Part shown: positions 119 through 15,444 of the stretch, piece after piece | How the letters are laid out: each line of letters opens with the position of its first letter | Position numbering within the stretch: the first letter of the stretch is position 1 | Assembly (NCBI GenBank): GCA_017454425.1 | Contig: JAFTCZ010000085.1 | Span: forward strand, 1 to 15,444 | Direction: 5' to 3' | DNA length: 15,444 bases | Source: Clostridia bacterium | GTDB taxonomy: Bacteria > Bacillota_A > Clostridia > Christensenellales > UBA1242 | Program-made: the position numbers and the translations under genes | The notes under the pieces: model-generated | Told to the model about the DNA's origin: nothing | What the model saw: the letters and a program-made list of their open reading frames with translations, nothing else | Databases searched by the model: none

Positions 119-607
119 ATGAATTTTGCAAAGATAAAAGCTCATTTTCTTAACAAAAAACAGCAAAAAGACGAGAAAAACTGGTATACAATTGAGTTTA
201 GATTTGATAAAACAATCCATATAGTTGAGCAAAAAATGCTAGAAATTATCCTTGCAGATAGAAGTAATTCTTTAAGTCAATTAATGTCTTGTGGCTGGAC
301 AAAAAATTGTGGTTGGCACGAAGGAAATGATGGAAAAATATATGAAAGACATGCCCTAAACGAGGCGGGTTTAGATTATTATGAACGCTTGGAACGCAAA
401 TGTGGCATTGCTCACATAGGCCCAATGTATGTAAAATTACTAAATAATATGAATGACCATAAATATCCAACAAAAGCTGATATAACAGCGACTTATATGT
501 ACTTTAATATATGCGAATATTTTAAGCGAAACGAGATAAAATCTATAAAAAAATACGAAGGCGCAGAACTAGAAAACAAGGGCGAGAATGTTGCCGTTCT
601 TCATTAA
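119..607 (+). CDS. Small soluble protein of unknown function, paralogue A
   Basis: I do not recognise the family. The 162-residue product has no signal peptide or membrane segment, so it is probably cytoplasmic. It starts with a Lys-rich amphipathic stretch (residues 1-20), then a WYTIEF strand-like segment, a helix VEQKMLEIILAD (36-47), a central GNDGKIYER region with LNEAGLDYYERL, and a basic C-terminal segment FKRNEIKSIKKYEGAEL. The same blocks occur in the same order in the 151-residue protein at 1457-1912, which supports both as real genes and both starts (MNFAKIK against MTFNKIK). An in-frame TAA at 104-106 rules out a longer start. The LNEAGLDYYERL segment resembles the wing-plus-helix of winged-helix regulators, but this is only a resemblance. 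It is transcribed alone, between its own promoter and a bidirectional terminator. Confidence 0.88.
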   Translation: MNFAKIKAHFLNKKQQKDEKNWYTIEFRFDKTIHIVEQKMLEIILADRSNSLSQLMSCGWTKNCGWHEGNDGKIYERHALNEAGLDYYERLERKCGIAHIGPMYVKLLNNMNDHKYPTKADITATYMYFNICEYFKRNEIKSIKKYEGAELENKGENVAVLH

Positions 608-670: not shown

Positions 671-1150
671 TTATTTTGCCAATTCTTCCTTAATTTTGTC
701 CACAAAACTTTCGGGTTTGTCTGTTGGCTCAAATCGTGCAACAACTTCGCCCTTGCGGTTTATCAAAAATTTTGTAAAATTCCACTTAATGGCTTGTGGT
801 TTGCCTTTTTCATTTTGCACAACAAGCCATTTATAAAGAGGGGAGGCATTGTTGCCCTTAACATCAATTTTCTTAAATCTTGGAAATTTTGTGTTGAATT
901 TTAAAGTGCAAAAAGTGTTAATTTCTTCATCACTTCCGGGTGCTTGATGAAAAAACTGGTTGCAAGGAAAATCCAAAATTTCAAAGCCTTGCCCAGCAAA
1001 ATCTTCATACATTTTTTCCAAAGCATCATATTGTGGCGTAAATCCGCATTTTGTTGCGGTGTTTACAATAAGCAAAACTTTGCCCTCATATTGCCTTAAA
1101 CTTACTTCTTCGCCCTTTTGGTTTAATACGCTAAAATCATAAACTGTCAT
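671..1150 (-). CDS. Cys-type glutathione peroxidase family thiol peroxidase
   Basis: The enzyme reduces hydrogen peroxide and organic hydroperoxides in the cytoplasm. Bacterial Cys-type members of this family (BsaA-like) usually use thioredoxin rather than glutathione; that is family knowledge, not shown here. The 159-residue length is normal. The peroxidatic Cys35 lies in NTATKCGFTPQY and is encoded by TGC, so this is not a selenoprotein. FPCNQF (61-66) with Gln69, and Trp123-Asn124 in KWNFTKFL, complete the catalytic tetrad. Cys81 in FCTLKFNTKFP is at the position of the resolving Cys of thioredoxin-type members; Cys63 is the conserved Cys of FPCNQF. The usual GFPCNQFGxQEPG is altered to DFPCNQFFHQAPG. 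The start is supported by AAAAGGAG (1168-1161), 10 bases before the ATG. It is transcribed alone, convergent with the first small gene. Confidence 0.96.
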   Translation of the reverse strand: MTVYDFSVLNQKGEEVSLRQYEGKVLLIVNTATKCGFTPQYDALEKMYEDFAGQGFEILDFPCNQFFHQAPGSDEEINTFCTLKFNTKFPRFKKIDVKGNNASPLYKWLVVQNEKGKPQAIKWNFTKFLINRKGEVVARFEPTDKPESFVDKIKEELAK

Positions 1151-1402: not shown

Positions 1403-1427
1403 CAGTTTTTTGTTTGTGTGATAAAAT
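1399..1427 (+). promoter_or_regulatory. Strong extended -10 sigma-A-type promoter of the second small gene
   Basis: TTGACA (1399-1404), a 17-base spacer and TAAAAT (1422-1427), with a TGn extension at 1419-1421, form a near-ideal vegetative promoter. Transcription should start near 1434, about 23 bases before the ATG at 1457. This excludes an in-frame ATG at 1418, which lies inside the promoter. Confidence 0.8.
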
Positions 1428-1440
1428 CATCACAACAACC

Positions 1441-1450
1441 AAAGGAGGGG
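1441..1450 (+). promoter_or_regulatory. Consensus ribosome binding site that fixes the start at 1457
   Basis: AAAGGAGGGG contains the full AAGGAGG anti-16S sequence (1442-1448), 8 bases before the ATG at 1457. The alternative upstream ATG at 1418 has no ribosome site and sits in the -10 region. Confidence 0.85.
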
Positions 1451-1456
1451 CGCACA

Positions 1457-1912
1457 ATGACCTTTAACAAAATTAAACAATATCTTGCAACTAAAAAACA
1501 AAAAGAAAACAGTTGGTTTGTTGTTGAACTTAACAATGAATATGATTGTTACATTGTCAGTCAGCAAATGCTTGAAATTATGCTTGCTGATAACTTAAGT
1601 TTGCAATATATGATAAACTGCAATTTTTCGGGTAGTTTTGGCAGACACCTTGGCAATGACCAAAAATCTTATCAAAGATATCGCTTAAATGACAATGGCT
1701 GGTTGTTGTATGACTCATTAAAACTTCAGGATAGGGGCAAAGTTTATGTTGAAGCCCTTGAAGAGATGAATGCCGACAATATTTTCCCAGAAAAACTTGC
1801 CGAAGAAAAAGCTGAAATACGCTGGAATTTTAAGAGACACCAAGTGAAAAGCATAAAAAGTTATAATGCTGCAGAGTTAAAACAATCTGACAACATCTCA
1901 CTTGCGCTCTAA
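1457..1912 (+). CDS. Small soluble protein of unknown function, paralogue B
   Basis: This 151-residue protein is not a family I recognise, but it is clearly homologous to the 162-residue protein at 119-607. Shared blocks are the basic start MTFNKIK, the segment WFVVEL, the helix VSQQMLEIMLAD (34-45), the GNDxKxYxR stretch, LNDNGWLLYDSL, and the C-terminal FKRHQVKSIKSYNAAEL. There is no signal peptide or membrane segment. Conserved charged and aromatic positions suggest a compact alpha/beta domain. A winged-helix DNA-binding fold is a weak possibility from the YRLNDNGWLLYDSL segment. It has its own strong promoter, a consensus ribosome site and a terminator, so it is an independent unit. The two paralogues flank the peroxidase gene, which suggests duplication with an intervening gene, or insertion of the peroxidase gene between tandem copies. 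Confidence 0.9.
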   Translation: MTFNKIKQYLATKKQKENSWFVVELNNEYDCYIVSQQMLEIMLADNLSLQYMINCNFSGSFGRHLGNDQKSYQRYRLNDNGWLLYDSLKLQDRGKVYVEALEEMNADNIFPEKLAEEKAEIRWNFKRHQVKSIKSYNAAELKQSDNISLAL

Positions 1913-2143: not shown

Positions 2144-2257
2144 ATGAGTGCTGTTGCAAAAAGAATAATAATTATTGTAAGCATTTTGGCAGGTGTTTTG
2201 GCCATTGTTGGCGGAAGCGTAGCTGTCATGATGAGCAAACCTTCTGCGGTTGTGGCA
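2144..2257 (+). other. Signal peptide or N-terminal membrane anchor of the giant protein
   Basis: Residues 1-7 (MSAVAKR) are basic. Residues 8-30 are an uninterrupted hydrophobic run of Ile, Val, Leu, Ala and Gly with no charge. They are followed by SKPSAVVA-RS, where Val36 and Ala38 fit the -3/-1 positions of a signal peptidase I site. The segment is long enough to remain as a membrane anchor if not cleaved. Either way the rest of the protein should be outside the membrane. Confidence 0.8.
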
Positions 2258-5200
2258 AGGTCGGATAGGCTAGATACACCAACTATTCGCGGGGTCGAAA
2301 AAGAGGGTGATGATTATGTATTGTCATTTACTTATATTCCTGACGCAATAGGGTATATGGTTTGTGAGTACAACCCCGATACCAACGAGCGTCATACCCA
2401 AACCTACAAGGGTGATGATGTTATTTATGCCGGCGAGTATGTAAAGGTGCGCATAACCGACTTTTTGTTTAATACCTACACCGAGGCAGATTATCGTGAT
2501 TATACCTTTACCGCAACAGCAAAATATTCGGACCAAGTTTTTAATAGTAAAGAAAGTGCCGCTTATGTTTATAAAAACCAATTAAAGTTGCAAACCCCAA
2601 CAATTAAAGACATTGACCCAAGCGCAACTTCAATGAAATGGGATAGTATTGAGTTTGCAACAAGTTATAACATCTATTTGCAAGATGAAGACGACAGCAA
2701 CAACGATGTGTACATTAACACAGTCGAAACCTATGTGCCTTATTCAACAATTAAACAAACTTTTGGACAACAAGAAAACTACAGCCTTTATGTTGTTGCA
2801 AAAAACCTAAATGTTAATTTGCAAGGCTATGTTTTGGACAGTGAAAAAAGTGACATTGGGTTCTATTTGCCGGCAGGTAAGTTGGGTGATGTTGCGTTAA
2901 GCTATGACAAAAATACAAAATCATTGTCATGGGATAGTGTTGTGGGCGCTACGAATTATCTTGTGTACCTCAGCACTCATGGCACAAGTGCTTATGCCTC
3001 ATTGAACGATAACGCTGCATTGTTTAACCACACAAATGGCAAATTTACCTTTGACCTAAGTGAGATAGAATGTGCAAACTATCTTGGCAGTGTAATAGTT
3101 TATGTCGAGGCCACAACATCAAATGCCTATGTCGAACCAAGCACAAGCAATAAAATAACTTATATCAACCAACGCAAACTAGAAGGTCCAACAGATATAT
3201 CTATTGCCAGTGATGACTCATACATGCAAATTAGTTGGAAGCCATCGGTTGATGCACCTTACACAACGGGGTATACTGTTTGGGCTTATAAATATACTGC
3301 AGCTCAGGCCCAAAACAACGAGATTTTGGCTGCACCTCAAAATTATGATGTTGCTCGCAGTGCAGGTTTTGACACAAGTACAACAAGTGTAAGTATTCAA
3401 CTTGACATCAACCTGACAGGTTTTTATGGAATTGCAATAGTTGCAAAAGCACCTAAGGGCTCTCAATATAGTGATAGTGATGTTGTATATTACAAAAATG
3501 CAAATGACCTAAACTTTTATGATGCCAACAAAGTTTTGCCTGCACCAAACGGCATAGTGGCAAACGAAAACGATGATGGCACAATTTGGGTTAGTTGGAA
3601 CATTGTTGAAAATGCACGCCGTTATCTTGTTAAACTTGAATCTGCTGATGGCAATGGTACCCCAGAAAAGATTTATGCGGTAACAGATACTCGTGAAGAA
3701 ATAAATCGTGTAAACACACGAATTCCACCATATCTATTAGATGCCAGTGATTTAATTCCGGGCAAATACAAAATTTCTGTTCGTACAGAATCTGGTGTGT
3801 TTTTAACCTCAAACCAAGAATACAACACAAGCGTAAGTTATCCTGAAGGGCAAGACTATGTTGCTTATCGCACTCCTTTTGATATGAGTGGCGCAGGCTT
3901 AGTATTTATACCAGCCACAAAAACACTTGTATGGCAAGAAATTTTGGGCGCAGTATCTTATGATGTTTATGCTCAAACGGGGGCGGAAGACCCAACATTT
4001 GTTGGTGTATCTAACAGCACAAGCTTTAATATGACCACCTTCTTTGAAGATTATCACAATGACACAGGGCTTTACAACATCTATATTGTTGCAAAAGGTG
4101 CCGAAAATGCTTATCGCACACCAACAAAATCTAGCACTGTGCAATATGATTTTGTGCAAAAATATCAACCACCGACAAATTTGAGTGTGACCGACTTGGG
4201 TCTTAATAGCCGCACTCTTGAATGGCAGGCAAGTGTTAATGCACAAACAAGCACTACATACACAATAATTGTAAATGATGTGGTTGCAAGTTCAAACGCA
4301 ACCGGAACATCTTTTGATATCACAAATTACCTTTCACTTGGGCCAAACATAGTGCAAATAAAAGCAAATGGTGATGACCTAAGGCTTGATAGTGCGTATG
4401 CTAGTGTTGCGTTTGATTATTATTACACCCTAACAGCAATTAGTGGCAATGTTAATGTTAGTGCAAGTTCACAAAACTACAACTATCCAAGCGTTGCACT
4501 AGAGTTTGCACAAGTAAAAAATGCACTAGGTTATTATGTGACAATTAATGGCACACACACAAATTTGTATTCGGATATCGCTGTCAGTGGCGGAGTTGTA
4601 ACAATTGCGCTATCTGCACAAGATGTGTCATATCTTAATGCGTTTGCAGACAACGAGATTGTTGTTACTCCTCACAATCAGGACGAGCACGGAATAGGCA
4701 ACGAATATGTTCTTTTGCCTTCAACAAATATTGGCAAAACTGTTATATTTACAAACACTTATTATTTGCCAGCACTTGCTTCTGTCGAGTTGCTTACTAA
4801 CACGCTTAACACAAACATCATAAGCAAAATTGTCAATCAAACAATCAATATTCAATTTACGCCATTAAATCTTGTGTCAGCAAATGCCGAATTTACAAAT
4901 GTGGTGCCTGTACAAACATACAAGGTAAATATTTACAATTCAACTCTCGAATTGATTGCAAGCCTAGATATTGACATCACAACGACCGAGCGTGAACTTG
5001 ATGGCAGCGTAATTGTTAATATATTTGATGTCTTTGTAAAAGAAAATTTAACTTCATTGTACACTGGCGATATTTATATTGCTGTGGCAGCATGCGTTGA
5101 CAGCCCAAATGATGTTGTGGGTTTACTATGTGCTTGTGAAGATTTTATTCAAATCAATCTTGGAATAGGCGAATTTTCTAACATACAGTACAACGAAACT

Positions 5201-8200
5201 CAAGACGGAATGATTTTGTCATGGGATAGTGTAGAGAATGCCACTAGTTATGATGTTAGCGTTGCTGGCGAGACCGTGCCAGGAATTGTTGCCCAAGATG
5301 GTGATGTGCAAAGCTTGGACCTTCAAACAATATTGCATGACAAAACAATAGGCGCTTACAATGTGACAATTACGGCAAGATATGGTGCCCAAAGCGAAGT
5401 TGGTGTGCAAAGTATAACTGTTGTCAAAAAGTTGTTTGTGCACGACATCGAATTAATAGACAACAACACCAATCTCACAATTGCGCAAGATGCTTTGCCA
5501 AGCACTTTGTATGATGGTGGTTTGGGCACATATGTGACTGCTACTCATTTGGTATTATTGTTTGATAATGCCGAGGCAGCAGATTTGCTAGCAACAAGCC
5601 CTGCTTTGTTAAGTGACTATACCTACAAAATTGTTGATTTAACAAGTTTGACGGCAGTTAATAATGTTTATACAATCAGCATTAGTGAATTTAATGCTGT
5701 TCAAACATGTTATGTTTATGCATTTAATAACAACAATCTTGCTACTGTTAGTGATTATGTTGTTTTGGATGTTGGCGGGGCAGTGCAATACAGCGACCCA
5801 ATTTTGTCATTAAGTGTTTACGAAGAAGATATTTTGGCAGAATGGCGTGTTGAATATCTTGACAACAATGGTGTTTCTACTCCTGCAACATATGTTTTGG
5901 ACATCTTAAAAAATGACGATAGTTTGGTAAACAATGCCTTGCTTTCAAATATTGATTTGTCTATGTATGACAACGAAAATACGCAGGTTAATGCTGGTGC
6001 GACAATTGCGGTTGTTAATGGCAAATTAAGCATCAGTATATCAAACAACACAATTCGCACAATTGTTGTACAAATTGCCAACATGGCAGCGGGCAACTAT
6101 TTGTTTAAGTTGCAGGCTGTTACACAAAGCCGAGCATATGCAAACAGTTCAAACATTGTGCAAGCAGAAATCATCTTGGCAAAAGTCTTGCAAAAGCCAA
6201 CAACAAGATTTGTGCCATATGACTTTGATGTAACTCCAAGTACATATCATGATGAATATGATACCCAAGACATGCAAAATGTTGATATTGACATTTATGC
6301 GGGATATCCATTTAGGGTATATGTAACAAACAATACAATTGATAACCTAACACTTACAAGTGTTGCGTTAAAAGTTCAAAAGAACGGAGTAGTCGTTGTT
6401 GAGGACAAAACATATCTTCTTAAGTCAAACACTTATGGAAACTTTATAGAACTTGACAAACTTGCAATGGGTATTTATACAACAGGCAATTATTCGTTAT
6501 ACTTAAAATATCCAACTCCAAATGCAATTTATTATGCAGACAGTGACTATACACTTGTTCGTACACTCGAAGTAACTGCATGTGAGCAAGATTTAAGCGT
6601 AAGCAATGTTAGCTTTGCAGATGGTGTGACAATTGGCGCAGATACAGGCTTTGAAATCTCTTGGCAAAACAACATGCTTTATCCACTTGACAGTGTTGTA
6701 AGTATGCGAATTTATGATTTTGCAGGCTATGACATGGGTGGAACAAATATGCCTATTGACACTGTTTATGCAAATCAAATTATTGCAAACACCACAACTT
6801 CTATCCAATATGTAATTTCAGACGACAACCAGTATGTTGTAGAATTTGAAATCCAAACAAACATTACAAGTGCTGACGAAACAACATATGGTCTTACTGC
6901 GTACACAAATGTGGCATACAGTTTTGTATATTTGGTAAACAACAACACAAAAGCATTTAGTTATGATAGCGTAAACGATACTCTTACAATAACCCTAGAT
7001 AACAAAATTGCGCTTGACAGCCCAATTGCAATAACTCTTAATGGTCAAGAATTTGCCACAGCTTCGAGCACGCTAAATACAATCACTTTTGCTAATGGTG
7101 CAAGTGTTATTAACGCAGTACAACCAGGTCTTGGAAACGCCAATGCACAAGTTCCACCTGTTGACAGGTTGGTGAGTGTTGTAATTTACAAAAATAACCA
7201 AGTTGTATATGATGATTCTATACAACAATTTCCTGTGTTTGTTCCACAATACGCACAAGGTGTTCAGTTAATGAATGACACCCAACTTTATTGGGACAGC
7301 GTTCAGTATGTTAGTGGTTATGTTGTACACATAAGTGATGGCACAAATTCATATTCTTACAATGTTTCAAGCAATGTTGTTTCGATGTTAGATTTGGTAG
7401 ATATTCATGGTGGAGTTTATTATGTTTATGTAGAAACAGCGCCATTAATAATAAATAACATATTTGTGCTTAATGGTACGCAAAACCCTATTTCTATTGA
7501 ATATCTCGAGCCATACAACACGGTAAGCAATGTTAGCTATCAAGAAAGCCTTGCAGGGCAAATCTATGATTTGACAGCAGATGACCAAGACTTGCAATAC
7601 AACAAAACACTTTCTTGGACAATAGACACCACAGGCACAAAATCACCACTAAACCCACAAACTTATGCAATGTTTAATATTGTGTTTGATGGGCCAGAGT
7701 ATATTGTGATAAGTGCTGTTTCTAGTGCTGTTTACAACCAAATGGTTTTAGACAACCAAGATGTATCAAGTGTTGTTGTGTTTGCGGTTAATGGTGCACA
7801 ATATTCAATAGACCTAACCGACATCTTAAACAACAGCAAGGTTGGGCCATATGCCGTTTCGGTTGTGCTTAATCATGCACAAATTGTTGCCCAAGACGCC
7901 AATTATAGATATCGTCTTTACTCAAAGCCAAGCACTCGCAACATAACAAACCACAAAGTTATGTCAATACCAACAGCAAACATTTGGGATTATATAACAG
8001 TAACCCCAGACAACATAGTTGTTGTTGATGATGATGTGCAAAATGGCACAGGCATGGCAAAAGCCATAGCTGGGCAAGCGGATTCTTTGATTGCTAGAAT
8101 TGACACATTTAATCACAAGGCTTTTGTCTTAAGTCAAACATTTGATTATGCAACAAAACTTAGCATTTCATTGTGGACAGGTAACAACTCTTTGGGCAAT

Positions 8201-11200
8201 GTAAGCATTAACAATACACAAGATGCTGCTGGTAGTACAAGTTTGATTATTAATGGCACATCATACAGGGCAATTGTTACGCTATATCTAGATGAAAACA
8301 CAGACGACCTTGGTAATTATGATTATTATTATGTTCCTACACTTGCCGATTTGGGCACTGGGGCAGACGAAGTATTTACGATAGACCAAAATGCTCATAC
8401 TATTAGCCGTGAATATACATTAAATACATACTATGCACTTGCAACACCAACCTTTACAATCAATTCAACCGAGCCAAATTCTGTAAACGGAGTTAGTGAT
8501 GCAAACCAAAACACTGTTGCAATCACCAATTCAAATTCAAACAGTGATACAACATATTTAATTAACATCTACGAGAACTCTTTGTCTGGTGGCTTTAATT
8601 CACCACAAAACTTTAACAGACTAAACAACTCTGCAAACAGCGTGATTATTGAAAACACCGGCGTACTTGGTACAGTTAACCTTAATTATGTATTAAATGA
8701 TTTGAATTTGCCATATGGCAAATATTGGGTAAGTTTGGTCAGATTGTCCGATACTTACATTAACAACCCTCGTGGTGATCTTTATGCCCTCAGCAGCTTC
8801 CAAAGCGAGCCTGTTATGTTTGATTATCACTATGTGCTTGGCAACATAAATGATGTAGAATATAGTGATGAAGACGAATACACCTTGTCATGGACACTGC
8901 TTGATGTGCAAGATGTTACACCTGTTAAATATTATGTGACAATGCAAGACATTCAGGGCAACAACTTTACATATTGGTGTGTTGTTGCTTATGACGGAAG
9001 TGATTATTCTATCACATCTTCATCAAGCGAAAACGAACTATTTAGCATAAATGGTAACAAACTGATTTTTTATGTTGACAATTATGTACGCAACACCGAA
9101 AGAGGCGGGACATATTATTTGGTTGGCAATTATTCATATTTTGTTGTTGCAACCGATGACCTAGGCGAAGTTGTCAATTTGGGCAGACCATCGCCAAGCA
9201 CACCAAGTGCAAGCAATGTGATAAGCAGTGCCGAAACAACCGGCAATTTTGTGTACAAAATTGTTTATCCACTTCAATATACCAGTGCAACATTAAATGG
9301 CAATACACTTGCGTGGGGTGCTGTTGACCAAAGCGGGTTAGCCTTAAACACGATTACTCACACATGGCAATATCGTCTTGAAAATGGCGAATTTGTGACA
9401 CTTGGCAATGTTGATGAAGAAATAGATAATGGCAATATTACCTGCAGCACACAAATTTTGCTAGATTATACCACAAGACAGCAATATGGTGATGCAATTT
9501 ACATAAGGCTGTTAATAAACAACGAAATAAACTTCCTTCGTGATACCAGTGGCTTTAATGTAAATGTTAGTGATCAACCACAATTGCCAGGGTTTACATC
9601 GTTTGTATTAGATACAAACAAAGCGGACGGAACAGTTAAATATGTGTTTGACAATGCTGTTATCAACAACTCTAGGTCTGGCGAGGCATATTATCTTGAC
9701 GACCTAAACAATGGCGTATTCGAAATTGGCCTTGACTTCGAATTAACCTATAACAACCAAACAATCACTTTGCCAAACAAAAATGGTGACATTGACCTTA
9801 CTGCATACTACGAGATGATAACCACCCAATATATACAACTTGGCGGAAACCTAAACCTTATTCAATTAATGAATACTACTCAAAAAGCACACTTTACACA
9901 CACCGTAAATGGTGTTACCGAGTTTATGCCAGGTGCATATAAGTTAAGACTAAAACTTTATGACCGCGCAAACCAAAATGAGGCAAAATATCTAACAACC
10001 CAAACAGCACAACAAGATATTTTTATTGTGGAAAGATGGGAAGTAGAAAATGTTGAACTTGCTGGACCTTACATTACATATTATGCCGATTTAACCGATG
10101 AAAATGGCGTGTTCTCAAAGCGTCTTAACAATCAAAAATCAATCAGTTGGGTAAGTGATCGTACAACAAACCTAAGTTTTGATATCACAAATCCAACCCT
10201 TGATGCACAAAGCCTCGAGTTAACCGTTTGGTTGCTAGATTATAGTTCAGAATACAAGGCAAACAACTACACCTTAATTGTTCCGGGCGACCGAATAAAT
10301 CGCTGCAAAACATATGATCTTTCAGGCTTTATGACAGGTGACCAAACATGGCATATCCAAATTGATATAACCGAAATTTGGCAAACAGTTACTTTGCCAA
10401 GAGAATATTTTGTTGGGTTCTATCTTGGCGAGTCACAAAACAATCACAATTCAAGCATAAGAAGAAAATCAATTTCATCATCTCATAATGATGAATTAAA
10501 CGAACTTTTGGGCAAAAATGATGAAACATCTCGCAATTACGCAATTATTAACTACAAATTCTTGCCAACTGTTACTTTGATGGATTATTTTGAATATGAC
10601 AAAAACGGAAACACAATAGTTTGCTGGCTCGAAAACAAAATAGGTACCGATTCATTTAGTTATGATTTATCCATAACCGAAATGGAGTACACAACTTCTT
10701 GGACAACTGTTGGAAGAACATATAGTGTACAAAAAATTCGTTCCGAAACAATAAAACTTGATGGCGTTATTTATCAAAGCTATCAAACAAACAAAATAGT
10801 TGATCTAAAAGATGCTGCATATTACCTTATTAAGGTTGCAGTTAGTGATAACACCGCCGATTCATATTATATAGGAACAAATCAAGCCGAAGATGACGCA
10901 AAGGCCGAATCAGAAAGAATGTATATGTTCTTAAATATCTATCAAAAACCAATTGATGCAAATATTGTGTCACTTGGCACCAACGACACAACAAAAACAC
11001 TTACCGGAAATGATCGTGACGATGGCTTAAGAGTTGAATCAAACAAAGATGACAACAGCACAACCCGTGCAGTAGTTATTGTTGATGAAGACACCGACCC
11101 AGAAACACAAATGCTGAAAATAACTTTCACTCAAGAAAGTATTGCTTCACTTGCTTATCGTTTGATTGTAGAAGACAGCAATGGTGCAGTTGTTAGCACA

Positions 11201-14200
11201 TACTTTGTTGGACGCATAAACAACAACACAAGCCTTGCACTTTACCTATACCACAATGCCGAAGTTCAGGGGGCTTATTATACAACCGCCGACCTAAACA
11301 ACAATGCGCCAATTTACATTTATGGCAATTCGGTTGGTGCTATTGTCAAATCGGGTGCAGTTTACAACATAACAATAACAGGACTGACTCTTAATCAGTT
11401 GTTTGGTAATAATTACAACAATGGTGCCGATTATGTCTTAAAAATTAGTGCTTTTGTGCCTGTTTACTTCCACACAATCAATTCACAACCATACAACAAC
11501 ACAAGTGTAGGCATCAATCCAAAAATAAACAACCACAACGGTATTAACTCTCGCACATTTAGATATTACATCAAGTTTGTTGTGCCAAAAATAGATAACA
11601 TTATACTAGAACAAAAGAATTTAACCACAAATACATACGAGGTTGTTGACAATTCAACAATTCGCAATGACAACGGAAATTATTCTTACAAACTAAAATT
11701 TGTTATTGACAAAAACTATATCGGCACAAGCACCGATTCAAAAATTATTGCACTTTATCTTGCTGGTCAAACAAAACTAGAATTTATGTATTATCAGTCT
11801 TACAGTTCTTGTGCGTTAGATGCATCAGGCAACCCTGTTGTCGAAGTTGTTGTAAATGACACAAACATCGAAGGTATATTCCAAAAATTTAGACAATTAA
11901 TAAACAACAGCCTGCCATCAAAACTTACATTTGGCGTTGTTATGTTGCCGGTTGGCGAGTGGTCAAACTCTAGCACAGATACACTAAACCCAAAATCAAA
12001 CGCAACAAGTTACAACGACAGCAACGAACTTGTCAAAAACAAAAACATCAACTCAATGGTGCAAAGTGAAGGAAAAGATATTACAATTAACATTCAATTG
12101 CCAAATGTTCCTCTTGCGTTGCATTACAACAATAAAATCGAGCAAAGTGCCGCTGCAAACATCAAAAAGGCTGCAACAGTTAACAATGTTTATTCAAATG
12201 TGTTGCAACCATATGGTGCCGAAACAAAAGTGGCAGTAGACCCATACTTGGGCAGAAACACCGATGTTTCTCAAAATAATTGTACGCGTGCATATCTATA
12301 TCAAAATCAATTTACAAAAAGAAACAACTTCAAGTTTTATGTTACCGTTTACAACCGAAACACAAACGACCTGCTAGGAAGTTTTGATAATTTTGTTGAT
12401 GTTGTTGATTTGTTAGATGTTAGCACATACACCTCGGACACCAACAATTTGTATGGCAAGCTTTATGCACTTTGCCCAAGTGGCGGGGCATTAAGGCTAG
12501 ATGTTGTGCTAAAATATGTCGGCACTTCACTAGGAAATTCAAGCTTGTGGGCCGACAGCCAAGCTACATCAATCAATCTCGATTTTTATGTCCGTGACCC
12601 AAGTGTTTATAAGCTGTTGCTTACACAAGATTGGGCAAGTACTCATACCATAACTTATGGTCAAAAAACTGACTTTTTGGCACCAATGGTAAGCATAAGT
12701 GCAACAAAAGATGACGAGACCTTGCAAAACGCTACTCTTTATGTCAAGATGTATGCAACCTATGGTGTGGCTGCTTTGGACGAGTATTTGTTTGAAATAT
12801 CACTAGACACAAACAATGATTTGATGTCATGGATATTAGATAAATACACGCCAAGGCGACTTAATAAAAATGACACCACAAAAGAAAACTTCTTAATGTA
12901 CGCTCTTATTGGCACAACAAATGAGGGTGCAAAATGGCATATTGATTATACAGTAAAACAAACTTCTGGCTTTATATGCAGCAATTATCTAACAAACACC
13001 CTTGTGGGTGATAACAAAATTGTTTCAAGCAATGCGTTTAGCCCTCAGTTAAAACTTGTTCAGCAAGAGACCACCGTTACATATTCAAACACCGGTGGAA
13101 CATTAGAAAAATTAGATTATGATGATGAGATTAAGTTCTATAAGTCTTACCGTTTGTACACCAACCCAACTTTCAAAAACATAAACACAACAGCAAGATA
13201 TCTCGAAATTGTTAGCATAAAAGATGGAAATAATGTAGAAAAACTAAATAATACAAGTTTGTTTATCTCTTTGTTAAAACAAGATGATGAGTTTGCATAT
13301 ACCTATACCGACAGCACAATTAATATTAATAACCGTGACGATTTTGTCACAAATCTAAAAGATACTATTGACACGGCAATTAATAAGACTGCTGGGGTAT
13401 ACACAATATCTTATCGTTATACTTATTATGGTGCAGGCGCAAATGGTGACAGTGCAAGAGTATTGCCTTCTGCAAAAATGTCTACACCTGCACAAGATGA
13501 TGACGAAAAACCATTAAACTTTGTATATACAAAATATCAAAAAGTTTATCAAAAATATTATGTATTATCAGTTGAAAATGGTGTAGTAAAAACAGAAAAC
13601 CTCACCCAAAATACCAACCTAGGAACTTTAATAAACCAAGCAATTAATAATGATCCTAATCAACCATTAGGCAGTCGACAAGAAGGTAGCACCACCAGCG
13701 ATGGCTTGTTTATTGTTTCTGACCAACCACAAACAGGCTATCAAGTTTATATCAGCCAATATGACTATGCAAGCAACAAAAAAGTTTATACATCATTAGA
13801 CCTCGAGACACGCACATTTGATAATGGAAGTGGCCAAGATTATGCATATTATTATATACAATTTGACCCAACAAAGGCAGATTGTTTGGACGAATATGAT
13901 AATGAAGCCAACAACTTGTTTGTTACTGGACATTACACAAGGCATACAGGCTATTTGCAAGGCGGAAACAACGAATTTTGCGTTGTTTCGCAAGATATGG
14001 CAAACCTAAATGGTGTTTACACCGTTTACAGCATAAATGGTTCGGATATTACGGCAAAGCATGCTGCTGTTACAAACATTAGTGGTAACTTCTTGTTAGA
14101 TAAAAACGAGTACCTCAAGTTTGCACAAGCAAGCGGAACACCAAATGCATCATATATTGATGCATCAAATGGAGAAACATGGGAAAATAGCTTAATAACA

Positions 14201-15444
14201 AAACTTGGCCCTGGTGGCACAAATGCCGTAACACTAAACTTTAATCAAACATGTCCAGTTTGTCATGGCACAGGGTACGAGATGCGCAATGATTTACCAC
14301 ACGAATATGTCTGCACAAAATACATTAATGTTCTTACATCACCGGCCATAGTGCCTATTCCTATTGCGGGCTTCTATTACTTTACTTGCAAATATTGTGG
14401 CGATCAGGTAAATGACAAATGGGGCTTGGTTACTGACTACAGCGTCGGCGGCACTTACGAGCTTGGTGGGTGTTGCGAAAAAAGGCGTGGTGAATGTCAC
14501 AATTGTGGCGGAATTGGACACACAAACACCGATTCTACCTATAACTATGCGTCATTATCTAATGGCGGCAATGGTTTGGGCATGTATGATAACTATCAAA
14601 TCATCAGCTGGATTTTTGATGGTGAACCAGTGGTTGATGACAATGGTTATGTAACCGAGCGCAAAATAAAGATTTTGTGTCAAGACACAGCGGGAGAAAA
14701 TGCTTTTGTATACAACACAAAATTAATTATTGGTCAAACATTGCCCGAGGTGAACTTATACACCAAATATAGGTTTAATGTAAAAATCACATATGGAAAC
14801 AGCAACAAAATAACAACTATGGCATTTGACAATAATACCAAATATTATTTGTGTAATGCCAAAATCCTAAATAATTATACAGGGCAATATCAATTCTCAC
14901 TCGAGCCAAAAACAGGTTTTGAGGGCTGCTTTAAGAATGATATTGATCAAACCGAAGCATCTGCCTTAACTTGGACAAGTACAAGTCGCGAGGGTAGAAC
15001 AATAACATGGGAAGAAAAAGACTTTGCAAATTCACATGTACTGTCAATTGAATTAAATGATAAAGCACCACTTTATGTTGCTAATGATTACACACAAACC
15101 AATCTAAGCACCTATTATGATATGAACGCATCAAGATATGGTGGCACAAATGATGCAGGTGTGTTTGCTAGATTAACACAAGGAGAAGATAAATCTAACA
15201 TAAATGATAGCATCTTCCCAGGTATGCGCCTTGGTATAAATTATGATGTTAAGGTTGTGTTTACCAAATGGGAAATTTCGTGGGACCTTTTTGGATGGAG
15301 CGGTAGTTTTGGTGATAACAACACTTGCCAGATGGTTGGTGATGAGACATGTTGGGACGGAAGCAACTATGACAGCAATATTTTGTATAAAGATGTTATT
15401 AATGATGAGGAACATATTCTTCAAGGCTATGCAATAAGTTTGAA
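2144..15444 (+). CDS. Giant secreted/surface protein with FN3-like repeats and a CxxCxGxG module, 3' end missing
   Basis: One frame stays open from the ATG at 2144 to the window edge: 4,433 complete codons, no stop. The start is secure because AAAGGAAG (2130-2137) lies 6 bases upstream and an in-frame TAA at 2138-2140 excludes anything longer. Order: N-terminal signal or anchor (about 1-38), regular FN3-like repeats (about 45-760), longer divergent beta-sandwich repeats (about 760-4030), cysteine-rich module (4037-4126), Cys-containing tail (to the edge). Trp-Asp-Ser-Val/Ile recurs at residues 166, 263, 1027 and 1718, followed by an Ala...Tyr pattern typical of FN3 strands B-C. Asn, Thr, Asp and Tyr are abundant and Cys is rare before residue 4037. 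No catalytic domain, LPXTG or SLH motif was seen; the C-terminus is outside the window. I infer an extracellular adhesin, stalk or scaffold. It has its own promoter, after the terminator of the gene before. Confidence 0.93.
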   Translation, partial: MSAVAKRIIIIVSILAGVLAIVGGSVAVMMSKPSAVVARSDRLDTPTIRGVEKEGDDYVLSFTYIPDAIGYMVCEYNPDTNERHTQTYKGDDVIYAGEYVKVRITDFLFNTYTEADYRDYTFTATAKYSDQVFNSKESAAYVYKNQLKLQTPTIKDIDPSATSMKWDSIEFATSYNIYLQDEDDSNNDVYINTVETYVPYSTIKQTFGQQENYSLYVVAKNLNVNLQGYVLDSEKSDIGFYLPAGKLGDVALSYDKNTKSLSWDSVVGATNYLVYLSTHGTSAYASLNDNAALFNHTNGKFTFDLSEIECANYLGSVIVYVEATTSNAYVEPSTSNKITYINQRKLEGPTDISIASDDSYMQISWKPSVDAPYTTGYTVWAYKYTAAQAQNNEILAAPQNYDVARSAGFDTSTTSVSIQLDINLTGFYGIAIVAKAPKGSQYSDSDVVYYKNANDLNFYDANKVLPAPNGIVANENDDGTIWVSWNIVENARRYLVKLESADGNGTPEKIYAVTDTREEINRVNTRIPPYLLDASDLIPGKYKISVRTESGVFLTSNQEYNTSVSYPEGQDYVAYRTPFDMSGAGLVFIPATKTLVWQEILGAVSYDVYAQTGAEDPTFVGVSNSTSFNMTTFFEDYHNDTGLYNIYIVAKGAENAYRTPTKSSTVQYDFVQKYQPPTNLSVTDLGLNSRTLEWQASVNAQTSTTYTIIVNDVVASSNATGTSFDITNYLSLGPNIVQIKANGDDLRLDSAYASVAFDYYYTLTAISGNVNVSASSQNYNYPSVALEFAQVKNALGYYVTINGTHTNLYSDIAVSGGVVTIALSAQDVSYLNAFADNEIVVTPHNQDEHGIGNEYVLLPSTNIGKTVIFTNTYYLPALASVELLTNTLNTNIISKIVNQTINIQFTPLNLVSANAEFTNVVPVQTYKVNIYNSTLELIASLDIDITTTERELDGSVIVNIFDVFVKENLTSLYTGDIYIAVAACVDSPNDVVGLLCACEDFIQINLGIGEFSNIQYNETQDGMILSWDSVENATSYDVSVAGETVPGIVAQDGDVQSLDLQTILHDKTIGAYNVTITARYGAQSEVGVQSITVVKKLFVHDIELIDNNTNLTIAQDALPSTLYDGGLGTYVTATHLVLLFDNAEAADLLATSPALLSDYTYKIVDLTSLTAVNNVYTISISEFNAVQTCYVYAFNNNNLATVSDYVVLDVGGAVQYSDPILSLSVYEEDILAEWRVEYLDNNGVSTPATYVLDILKNDDSLVNNALLSNIDLSMYDNENTQVNAGATIAVVNGKLSISISNNTIRTIVVQIANMAAGNYLFKLQAVTQSRAYANSSNIVQAEIILAKVLQKPTTRFVPYDFDVTPSTYHDEYDTQDMQNVDIDIYAGYPFRVYVTNNTIDNLTLTSVALKVQKNGVVVVEDKTYLLKSNTYGNFIELDKLAMGIYTTGNYSLYLKYPTPNAIYYADSDYTLVRTLEVTACEQDLSVSNVSFADGVTIGADTGFEISWQNNMLYPLDSVVSMRIYDFAGYDMGGTNMPIDTVYANQIIANTTTSIQYVISDDNQYVVEFEIQTNITSADETTYGLTAYTNVAYSFVYLVNNNTKAFSYDSVNDTLTITLDNKIALDSPIAITLNGQEFATASSTLNTITFANGASVINAVQPGLGNANAQVPPVDRLVSVVIYKNNQVVYDDSIQQFPVFVPQYAQGVQLMNDTQLYWDSVQYVSGYVVHISDGTNSYSYNVSSNVVSMLDLVDIHGGVYYVYVETAPLIINNIFVLNGTQNPISIEYLEPYNTVSNVSYQESLAGQIYDLTADDQDLQYNKTLSWTIDTTGTKSPLNPQTYAMFNIVFDGPEYIVISAVSSAVYNQMVLDNQDVSSVVVFAVNGAQYSIDLTDILNNSKVGPYAVSVVLNHAQIVAQDANYRYRLYSKPSTRNITNHKVMSIPTANIWDYITVTPDNIVVVDDDVQNGTGMAKAIAGQADSLIARIDTFNHKAFVLSQTFDYATKLSISLWTGNNSLGNVSINNTQDAAGSTSLIINGTSYRAIVTLYLDENTDDLGNYDYYYVPTLADLGTGADEVFTIDQNAHTISREYTLNTYYALATPTFTINSTEPNSVNGVSDANQNTVAITNSNSNSDTTYLINIYENSLSGGFNSPQNFNRLNNSANSVIIENTGVLGTVNLNYVLNDLNLPYGKYWVSLVRLSDTYINNPRGDLYALSSFQSEPVMFDYHYVLGNINDVEYSDEDEYTLSWTLLDVQDVTPVKYYVTMQDIQGNNFTYWCVVAYDGSDYSITSSSSENELFSINGNKLIFYVDNYVRNTERGGTYYLVGNYSYFVVATDDLGEVVNLGRPSPSTPSASNVISSAETTGNFVYKIVYPLQYTSATLNGNTLAWGAVDQSGLALNTITHTWQYRLENGEFVTLGNVDEEIDNGNITCSTQILLDYTTRQQYGDAIYIRLLINNEINFLRDTSGFNVNVSDQPQLPGFTSFVLDTNKADGTVKYVFDNAVINNSRSGEAYYLDDLNNGVFEIGLDFELTYNNQTITLPNKNGDIDLTAYYEMITTQYIQLGGNLNLIQLMNTTQKAHFTHTVNGVTEFMPGAYKLRLKLYDRANQNEAKYLTTQTAQQDIFIVERWEVENVELAGPYITYYADLTDENGVFSKRLNNQKSISWVSDRTTNLSFDITNPTLDAQSLELTVWLLDYSSEYKANNYTLIVPGDRINRCKTYDLSGFMTGDQTWHIQIDITEIWQTVTLPREYFVGFYLGESQNNHNSSIRRKSISSSHNDELNELLGKNDETSRNYAIINYKFLPTVTLMDYFEYDKNGNTIVCWLENKIGTDSFSYDLSITEMEYTTSWTTVGRTYSVQKIRSETIKLDGVIYQSYQTNKIVDLKDAAYYLIKVAVSDNTADSYYIGTNQAEDDAKAESERMYMFLNIYQKPIDANIVSLGTNDTTKTLTGNDRDDGLRVESNKDDNSTTRAVVIVDEDTDPETQMLKITFTQESIASLAYRLIVEDSNGAVVSTYFVGRINNNTSLALYLYHNAEVQGAYYTTADLNNNAPIYIYGNSVGAIVKSGAVYNITITGLTLNQLFGNNYNNGADYVLKISAFVPVYFHTINSQPYNNTSVGINPKINNHNGINSRTFRYYIKFVVPKIDNIILEQKNLTTNTYEVVDNSTIRNDNGNYSYKLKFVIDKNYIGTSTDSKIIALYLAGQTKLEFMYYQSYSSCALDASGNPVVEVVVNDTNIEGIFQKFRQLINNSLPSKLTFGVVMLPVGEWSNSSTDTLNPKSNATSYNDSNELVKNKNINSMVQSEGKDITINIQLPNVPLALHYNNKIEQSAAANIKKAATVNNVYSNVLQPYGAETKVAVDPYLGRNTDVSQNNCTRAYLYQNQFTKRNNFKFYVTVYNRNTNDLLGSFDNFVDVVDLLDVSTYTSDTNNLYGKLYALCPSGGALRLDVVLKYVGTSLGNSSLWADSQATSINLDFYVRDPSVYKLLLTQDWASTHTITYGQKTDFLAPMVSISATKDDETLQNATLYVKMYATYGVAALDEYLFEISLDTNNDLMSWILDKYTPRRLNKNDTTKENFLMYALIGTTNEGAKWHIDYTVKQTSGFICSNYLTNTLVGDNKIVSSNAFSPQLKLVQQETTVTYSNTGGTLEKLDYDDEIKFYKSYRLYTNPTFKNINTTARYLEIVSIKDGNNVEKLNNTSLFISLLKQDDEFAYTYTDSTININNRDDFVTNLKDTIDTAINKTAGVYTISYRYTYYGAGANGDSARVLPSAKMSTPAQDDDEKPLNFVYTKYQKVYQKYYVLSVENGVVKTENLTQNTNLGTLINQAINNDPNQPLGSRQEGSTTSDGLFIVSDQPQTGYQVYISQYDYASNKKVYTSLDLETRTFDNGSGQDYAYYYIQFDPTKADCLDEYDNEANNLFVTGHYTRHTGYLQGGNNEFCVVSQDMANLNGVYTVYSINGSDITAKHAAVTNISGNFLLDKNEYLKFAQASGTPNASYIDASNGETWENSLITKLGPGGTNAVTLNFNQTCPVCHGTGYEMRNDLPHEYVCTKYINVLTSPAIVPIPIAGFYYFTCKYCGDQVNDKWGLVTDYSVGGTYELGGCCEKRRGECHNCGGIGHTNTDSTYNYASLSNGGNGLGMYDNYQIISWIFDGEPVVDDNGYVTERKIKILCQDTAGENAFVYNTKLIIGQTLPEVNLYTKYRFNVKITYGNSNKITTMAFDNNTKYYLCNAKILNNYTGQYQFSLEPKTGFEGCFKNDIDQTEASALTWTSTSREGRTITWEEKDFANSHVLSIELNDKAPLYVANDYTQTNLSTYYDMNASRYGGTNDAGVFARLTQGEDKSNINDSIFPGMRLGINYDVKVVFTKWEISWDLFGWSGSFGDNNTCQMVGDETCWDGSNYDSNILYKDVINDEEHILQGYAISL
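2276..4430 (+). other. Regular block of about seven FN3-like repeats (residues ~45-760)
   Basis: Each unit has a strand-B segment ending in Trp or Phe plus a 'v..A..Y.V' strand C, for example LSFTYIPDAIGYMV, WDSIEFATSYNIYL, WDSVVGATNYLVYL and WQEILGAVSYDVYA. Each also has a strand-F signature of the type YxLYVVAK, often followed by Ser pairs. Strand-B Trp residues are at 166, 263, 365, 485, 597 and 694. Strand-F signatures begin near 120, 213, 317, 427, 542, 644 and 736. Spacing is therefore 92-115 residues, slightly longer than a classical FN3 domain. Sequence identity between units is low, so this is an old, diverged array. Acidic loops such as QDEDDSNND (around residue 178) could bind calcium. 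An HMM search has not been run, so the family call rests on pattern. Confidence 0.68.
4431..14251 (+). other. Long, divergent beta-sandwich repeat region (residues ~763-4036)
   Basis: The FN3-like pattern continues but with wider, less regular spacing. Recognisable strand-B segments include WDSVENATSYDV (1027), WDSVQYVSGYVV (1718), LSWTLLDV (near 8888) and LAWGAVDQ (near 9308). Strand-F-like segments occur near residues 978, 1072, 1190, 1319, 1450, 1759, 1903, 2194, 2330, 2599, 2893, 3097 and 3753, so units grow from about 100 to 150-300 residues. From about residue 3150 the pattern is hard to follow and the sequence is mainly Asn/Thr/Asp/Tyr-rich beta-type sequence. Cys is nearly absent, apart from a small cluster at 984, 996 and 998. 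A basic RRKS patch occurs at 2773-2776. No enzymatic motif was recognised anywhere in this region. Confidence 0.5.
14252..14521 (+). other. Cysteine-rich, DnaJ-type zinc-module-like segment (residues 4037-4126)
   Basis: The segment opens with CPVCHGTG (Cys4037, Cys4040) and closes with CHNCGGIG (Cys4118, Cys4121). Both match CxxCxGxG, the repeat that binds zinc in the central domain of DnaJ/Hsp40. Between them are Cys4057, CKYCG (Cys4082, Cys4085) and Cys4110-Cys4111. In DnaJ four such repeats form two zinc sites, the outer pair making one and the inner pair the other; here the outer pair is exact and the inner Cys are only partly in that form. The span of 85 residues is longer than the roughly 57 residues in E. 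coli DnaJ. There is no J-domain nearby, and the host protein appears to be exported, so a structural zinc site or disulfide knot is likelier than a chaperone role. Confidence 0.65.
14522..15444 (+). other. Cys-containing tail of the giant protein, continuing off the window
   Basis: Residues 4127-4433 have no recognised domain. Isolated Cys occur at 4179, 4237, 4262, 4395 and 4403, a much higher density than in the region before residue 4037. Aromatic-rich segments such as YRFNVKITYG and FTKWEISWDLFGW alternate with Asn/Asp/Thr loops, consistent with more beta-rich domains. No wall-sorting signal, SLH repeat or cell-wall-binding repeat is present up to the edge, so attachment must be decided by sequence beyond it. 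Confidence 0.45.

Follow-up and report, generated by a model that had tools for sequence, protein, structure and literature searches.

The cysteine-rich domain of DnaJ chaperones (PF00684) is a hairpin fold with two zinc sites. Zinc is also bound by anti-TRAP, through two CxxCxGxG motifs in a segment at residues 9-36 (PMC2896485), and DnaJ-type zinc proteins without a J-domain are described, namely ZnJ2 of plastids, which has four motifs (PMC5818400), and PSA2, reported in the thylakoid lumen (PMC7662858). The Lactococcus membrane proteins Llmg_0524 and Llmg_0526 hold zinc on CX2C pairs, in a complex judged to serve stability rather than sensing, and their cysteine-bearing ends are cytoplasmic (PMC4628341). 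We present here a module of nine cysteines (Cys) in a giant protein encoded by a 15,444-nucleotide stretch of DNA, hereafter the window, from a Clostridia bacterium (GenBank assembly GCA_017454425.1, contig JAFTCZ010000085.1). We tentatively favor the view that this module is a lineage-specific structural metal-binding brace, most likely for zinc, in an exported or anchored giant fiber, and that it resembles the DnaJ zinc domain through convergent use of the same knuckle.

The CxxCxGxG motif occurs exactly twice in the 4433 residues of the giant protein, with starts 81 residues apart, and further Cys stand between the two copies, including a CxxCG (CKYCG, C4057, C4110, and C4111; Table 1); both features had been pointed out in an earlier, sequence-only reading of the window and are confirmed here. 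The module follows the pattern C-x2-C-x16-C-x24-C-x2-C-x24-CC-x6-C-x2-C and contains three CxxC pairs, two of which are full CxxCxGxG motifs. When the residues of the whole protein, which has 31 Cys in total, were shuffled 20,000 times, at least one motif arose in 7 shuffles and two motifs in none. All nine Cys lie within 85 residues, compared with at most six in the densest 92-residue window across 2,000 shuffles. The Cys cluster is beyond chance.

A single relative, P0002 (4503 amino acids [aa]), was found by searching ~5.8 billion proteins, with shared 5-residue words required for a match. The queries were residues 3900-4433 and the module (residues 4026-4146), the latter with length limits set once for the 4433-aa protein and once for a 1400-aa piece. 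Across residues 4037-4126, P0002 retains 9/9 Cys, 12/13 glycines (Gly), and 3/4 histidines (His); the sequence-only reading had taken loss of the Cys and Gly positions in homologues as a sign against its proposal, and they are conserved, which is weak evidence coming from one relative that is 84% identical overall. Identity at non-Cys positions is 65/81 in the module versus 301/437 in its flanks from residue 3900 on (Fisher p=0.046). Because 3334/3899 of the preceding residues are also identical, the module is conspicuous only against its own C-terminal neighborhood; in the whole protein, 29/31 Cys are kept. Identity is complete at residues 4041-4063 (23/23) and 4078-4102 (25/25), and the single indel within the module, between C4057 and C4082, concerns residues 4068-4070, which P0002 lacks.

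The giant protein is probably exported, as judged from its N terminus. Its eight most hydrophobic 19-residue windows are all N-terminal, and two basic residues (K6 and R7) precede the most hydrophobic stretch, an arrangement that fits a signal peptide or signal anchor. The beta repeats that follow look like FN3 by eye, and six FN3-like strand signatures were counted with a simple pattern; a Pfam scan of the protein returned neither an FN3 match nor any family above its threshold. The HPD signature of J-domains is absent from the 4433 residues of this frame, which is incomplete at its 3′ end, in agreement with the earlier statement that no J-domain is present.

The same reading had likened the motifs to the DnaJ zinc domain, but membership in that domain family is not supported. 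Neither the protein nor the segment matched PF00684 (curated cut-off, 32.7 bits) at an expect value (E) of ≤1, with search filters that drop most matches above ~0.1. In 30/30 DnaJ domains, taken from the 30 best-scoring loci of a genome scan with PF00684, there are four repeats with a spacing of 17/26/14, whereas the Cys positions of the module, placed in the same register, give 20/25/36 and comprise two exact CxxCxGxG motifs, one CxxC without the Gly pattern, and one single Cys. The Cys-rich domain of Escherichia coli DnaJ appeared in a search of PDB sequences at E 0.96 with the segment and 5.4 with a two-row profile. Against a hidden Markov model (HMM) of the 30 domains, the module scored 12.6 bits in separate single-repeat matches, the first knuckle matching best; this score was reached by 0/200 full shuffles, 0/200 shuffles keeping Cys, and 12/200 keeping Cys and Gly. 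Alignment of the module to the same domains with hhalign gave a probability of 92 and an E of 5.3e-7 (one comparison) over 20 columns; 0/60 shuffles keeping Cys and Gly reached that score, the best attaining a probability of 86.5.

A 118-column, two-row profile of the module yielded 12 matches (E≤0.05) in 392 genomes from the phylum of genome G001: seven DnaJ-like frames, the locus L123, and four others, three of them with stops. The seven, which include the best match (E 7.1e-4), lie in frames with the four CxxC of DnaJ; they start at profile positions 3-10 and stop at 33-61 of 118, so the DnaJ likeness rests on the first knuckle. The hhalign and genome matches both depend on this knuckle and its surroundings, and what they support is a good likeness to one DnaJ knuckle, with none shown to the whole domain. 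PF00684 itself matched 115 of 117 sampled genomes at E≤0.001, with 111 over the cut-off; among the matches listed, frames over the cut-off were 371 to 444 aa long and weaker ones 69 to 1001 aa, those of ~950 aa being presumably UvrA. DnaJ membership was tested with Pfam, PDB sequences, the local HMM of 30 domains, and hhalign and was rejected, although one control still favors it.

Further relatives were sought in several collections. The C-terminal part of the giant protein had no match in viral_contigs or genome_contigs; its first 700 residues and a small gene nearby had none in viral_contigs; and the module had none among 50,697 phage and 72,556 plasmid records. Among sampled genomes, the first 500 residues matched 0/8, the C-terminal 2833 aa matched 0/279 (order of G004), and the C-terminal 533 aa matched 1/279 (order of G001), at E 0.007 and in an unrelated frame. 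A 275-residue alignment matched 2/391 (class of G002), one broken by stops and one chance-like, and the first 1400 residues matched 1/274 (order of G001), in a frame of 957 aa that carries FN3-like repeats but is not a relative of the module. The genome samples were chosen through the match to the window's peroxidase, perhaps outside the host's lineage, and none had a known positive; the absence of relatives in them is therefore weak evidence. Among the titles and abstract openings listed, none described a module of CxxCxGxG motifs within a giant surface protein of bacteria, which is not proof of none in print. Separately, an unrelated viral frame with an ATPase-like appearance by inspection (L128, ~4927..5769, + strand of its own locus) has an N-terminal knuckle, CPYCHGTGYE, in common with the first knuckle of the module (within 21 matched residues).

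The module resembles the chaperone zinc domain only in its shortest motif and so probably serves as a structural brace, not as a piece of a chaperone. In the arrangement that we propose, the fiber would be anchored or exported by its N terminus, with the module near the far end of its known part. One Cys4 site would arise from pairing of the two outer knuckles, CPVC (4037/4040) with CHNC (4118/4121); the other would combine CKYC (4082/4085) with C4057 and either C4110 or C4111. Together, these sites would brace a loop-rich insert of ~90 residues in the manner of a zinc clasp. The tip of a hairpin would be expected between C4057 and C4082, where the length change at 4068-4070 falls. The suggestion that the outer motifs make one zinc site, as DnaJ repeats 1 and 4 do, survives to the extent that the outer pair could form such a site; the correspondence to DnaJ repeats in number and spacing does not.

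Table 1. Positions of the module, its parts, and accompanying genes. Coordinates refer to the window, except for L126, which is numbered in its own locus.
Feature	Coordinates	Strand	Residues or length	Remarks
Nine-Cys module	14252..14518	+	4037-4125	C4037, C4040, C4057, C4082, C4085, C4110, C4111, C4118, C4121
Outer knuckle 1, CPVCHGTG	14252..14275	+	4037-4044	CSTCHGTG in P0002
Single Cys (CTKY)	14312..14314	+	C4057	Position of the CxxC of the second DnaJ repeat
Segment with the length difference	14333..14365	+	4064-4074	Sole length difference of the module from P0002; possible hairpin tip
Inner knuckle, CKYCG	14387..14401	+	4082-4086	Identical in P0002
Adjacent Cys pair	14471..14476	+	C4110-C4111	May supply the ligand that completes the inner site
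Outer knuckle 4, CHNCGGIG	14495..14518	+	4118-4125	CRNCGGTG in P0002
Giant open reading frame	2144..15442	+	4433 aa	Incomplete; runs off the 3′ end of the window
Small protein gene	119..607	+		Paralogous pair with the next, flanking the peroxidase gene
Small protein gene	1418..1912	+		Paralogous pair with the previous
Glutathione peroxidase	671..1150	-		PF00255; giant gene one gene away
L126 frame	2365..7695	-	1776 aa	Lipoprotein-like start by inspection

Metal binding by the module is favored by the three CxxC pairs, the clustering of nine Cys, their conservation in P0002, the location of the single indel, and the zinc held on CX2C pairs or CxxCxGxG motifs in the Lactococcus proteins and anti-TRAP. 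Several observations weigh against it. Two Cys4 sites would leave one of the nine Cys over, and Cys on an exported protein could be oxidized to disulfides. Nothing in Pfam, NCBIfam, PHROGs, or PDB sequences matched the module significantly; AlphaFold, run on two-row alignments, gave no fold (mean predicted local distance difference test scores of 32.6 and 34.0); and the two homologues are so similar that conservation of the Cys does not discriminate. In the literature searched, zinc on knuckles of this kind is described inside cells (anti-TRAP, ZnJ2, and the two Lactococcus proteins), and no extracellular precedent turned up. Because the Lactococcus proteins carry their Cys on cytoplasmic ends, we lowered our estimate for the zinc brace from about an even chance to slightly below one. 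The missing precedent and the probable export of the protein also speak for a disulfide-linked knot, in which the Cys would be oxidized after export and lock the insert, an explanation that we consider possible but doubtful. The C4110-C4111 pair and the lone C4057, which are atypical of zinc knuckles, count in its favor as well. Against such a knot, the three CxxC pairs suggest metal knuckles, the Gly pattern being present in two of them, and the odd number of Cys would leave one unpaired within the module. Extracytoplasmic proteins of Gram-positive bacteria are, moreover, described as poor in Cys ("cysteine exclusion," PMC4628341), which would bear on this host insofar as it is Gram-positive, as it tentatively appears to be.

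The braced insert might instead be a ligand-binding head, for a glycan, a protein, or metal scavenging, and not a passive brace, an explanation that may overlap with the zinc one; its late position in the known part of the fiber and the two fully identical stretches noted above are consistent with this. We regard it as unlikely, given that no family matches, that other stretches of the giant protein are conserved equally or better, and that the true C terminus of the fiber lies beyond the known part. Capture of a DnaJ Cys-rich domain that has since diverged and serves as a surface chaperone or oxidoreductase is very unlikely: the motif order is compatible with DnaJ repeats 1 to 4, the hhalign score exceeds its shuffles, seven of the 12 profile matches are DnaJ-like frames, and J-less zinc proteins of the DnaJ type such as ZnJ2 and PSA2 are known, but PF00684 is unmatched, the spacing differs, the second repeat is short of one Cys, HPD is missing, the HMM score is carried by single repeats and reached by some shuffles keeping Cys and Gly, and the seven frames match at the first knuckle. 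Least probable is a redox or electron-transfer element carrying c-type heme or an iron-sulfur cluster. CPVCH and its P0002 counterpart CSTCH (residues 4037-4041, window positions 14252..14266) both agree with the heme motif CxxCH, which is by itself unspecific, but His follows only the first of the three CxxC pairs in the 4433 residues.

A metal brace remains our preferred reading. In its boldest form, the module would be a two-zinc clasp outside the cell, wired as in DnaJ with outer knuckles paired to each other and inner Cys to each other, that evolved independently in a giant surface fiber and stiffens or switches the fiber according to zinc or redox state; this form we think rather unlikely. 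If zinc is bound outside the cell, giant bacterial surface proteins would gain a metal-braced element among their known parts, and a DnaJ-type knuckle would be found in use outside any chaperone. At present the module is an oddity that stands alone, known from two proteins and without a structure.

Other genes of the window lie upstream of the giant gene (Table 1). The two small paralogues are 37% identical (59/161) and had no Pfam match at E≤0.1. The top genome match of the glutathione peroxidase, among the best 80 matches, is 72% identical and belongs to a metagenome-assembled genome titled "Bacillales," a weak hint of a host in the Bacillota. The order of the peroxidase's best match (again among the best 80) is also the source of L126, which has 17 CxxC pairs and nine C-x(n)-CxxC-x(n)-GH units. 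Only DUF4907 exceeded its Pfam cut-off in a 1064-aa piece of L126 (25.6 versus 25 bits, with no single stretch passing), and the frame matched the module profile at E 0.026, which was not counted as homology. L126 is possibly an undescribed extracellular Cys repeat, and its presence points to Cys knuckles on exported proteins in that order. The setting that the sequence-only reading called unexpected stands in that the motifs lie in a probably exported giant protein, but L126 makes it less surprising.

Among the systems compared, L126 resembles the module in bearing CxxC pairs on an apparently exported protein and differs in its many repeats and in lacking CxxCxGxG in the part examined. Llmg_0524 and Llmg_0526 share the CX2C pairs, but in a CX2CX10CX2C pattern and on cytoplasmic ends. 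ZnJ2 and PSA2, which have a DnaJ-type zinc domain, resemble the module in doing without a J-domain; ZnJ2, however, has four motifs and is a chaperone of its own rather than an insert of a giant fiber. Anti-TRAP (RtpA) likewise combines two CxxCxGxG motifs with the lack of a J-domain, and its family NF058604 is the module's best NCBIfam match, a weak one (E 0.057; 13.5 bits versus an equivalog cut-off of 65); it is a small protein with a short zinc segment, whereas the motifs of the module start much farther apart. The DnaJ domain shares the CxxCxGxG knuckles and the possible pairing of outer with outer and inner with inner, and the module departs from it in having two full repeats instead of four, one inner pair cut to a single Cys, an extra Cys-Cys pair, a different spacing, probable export, and no J-domain found.

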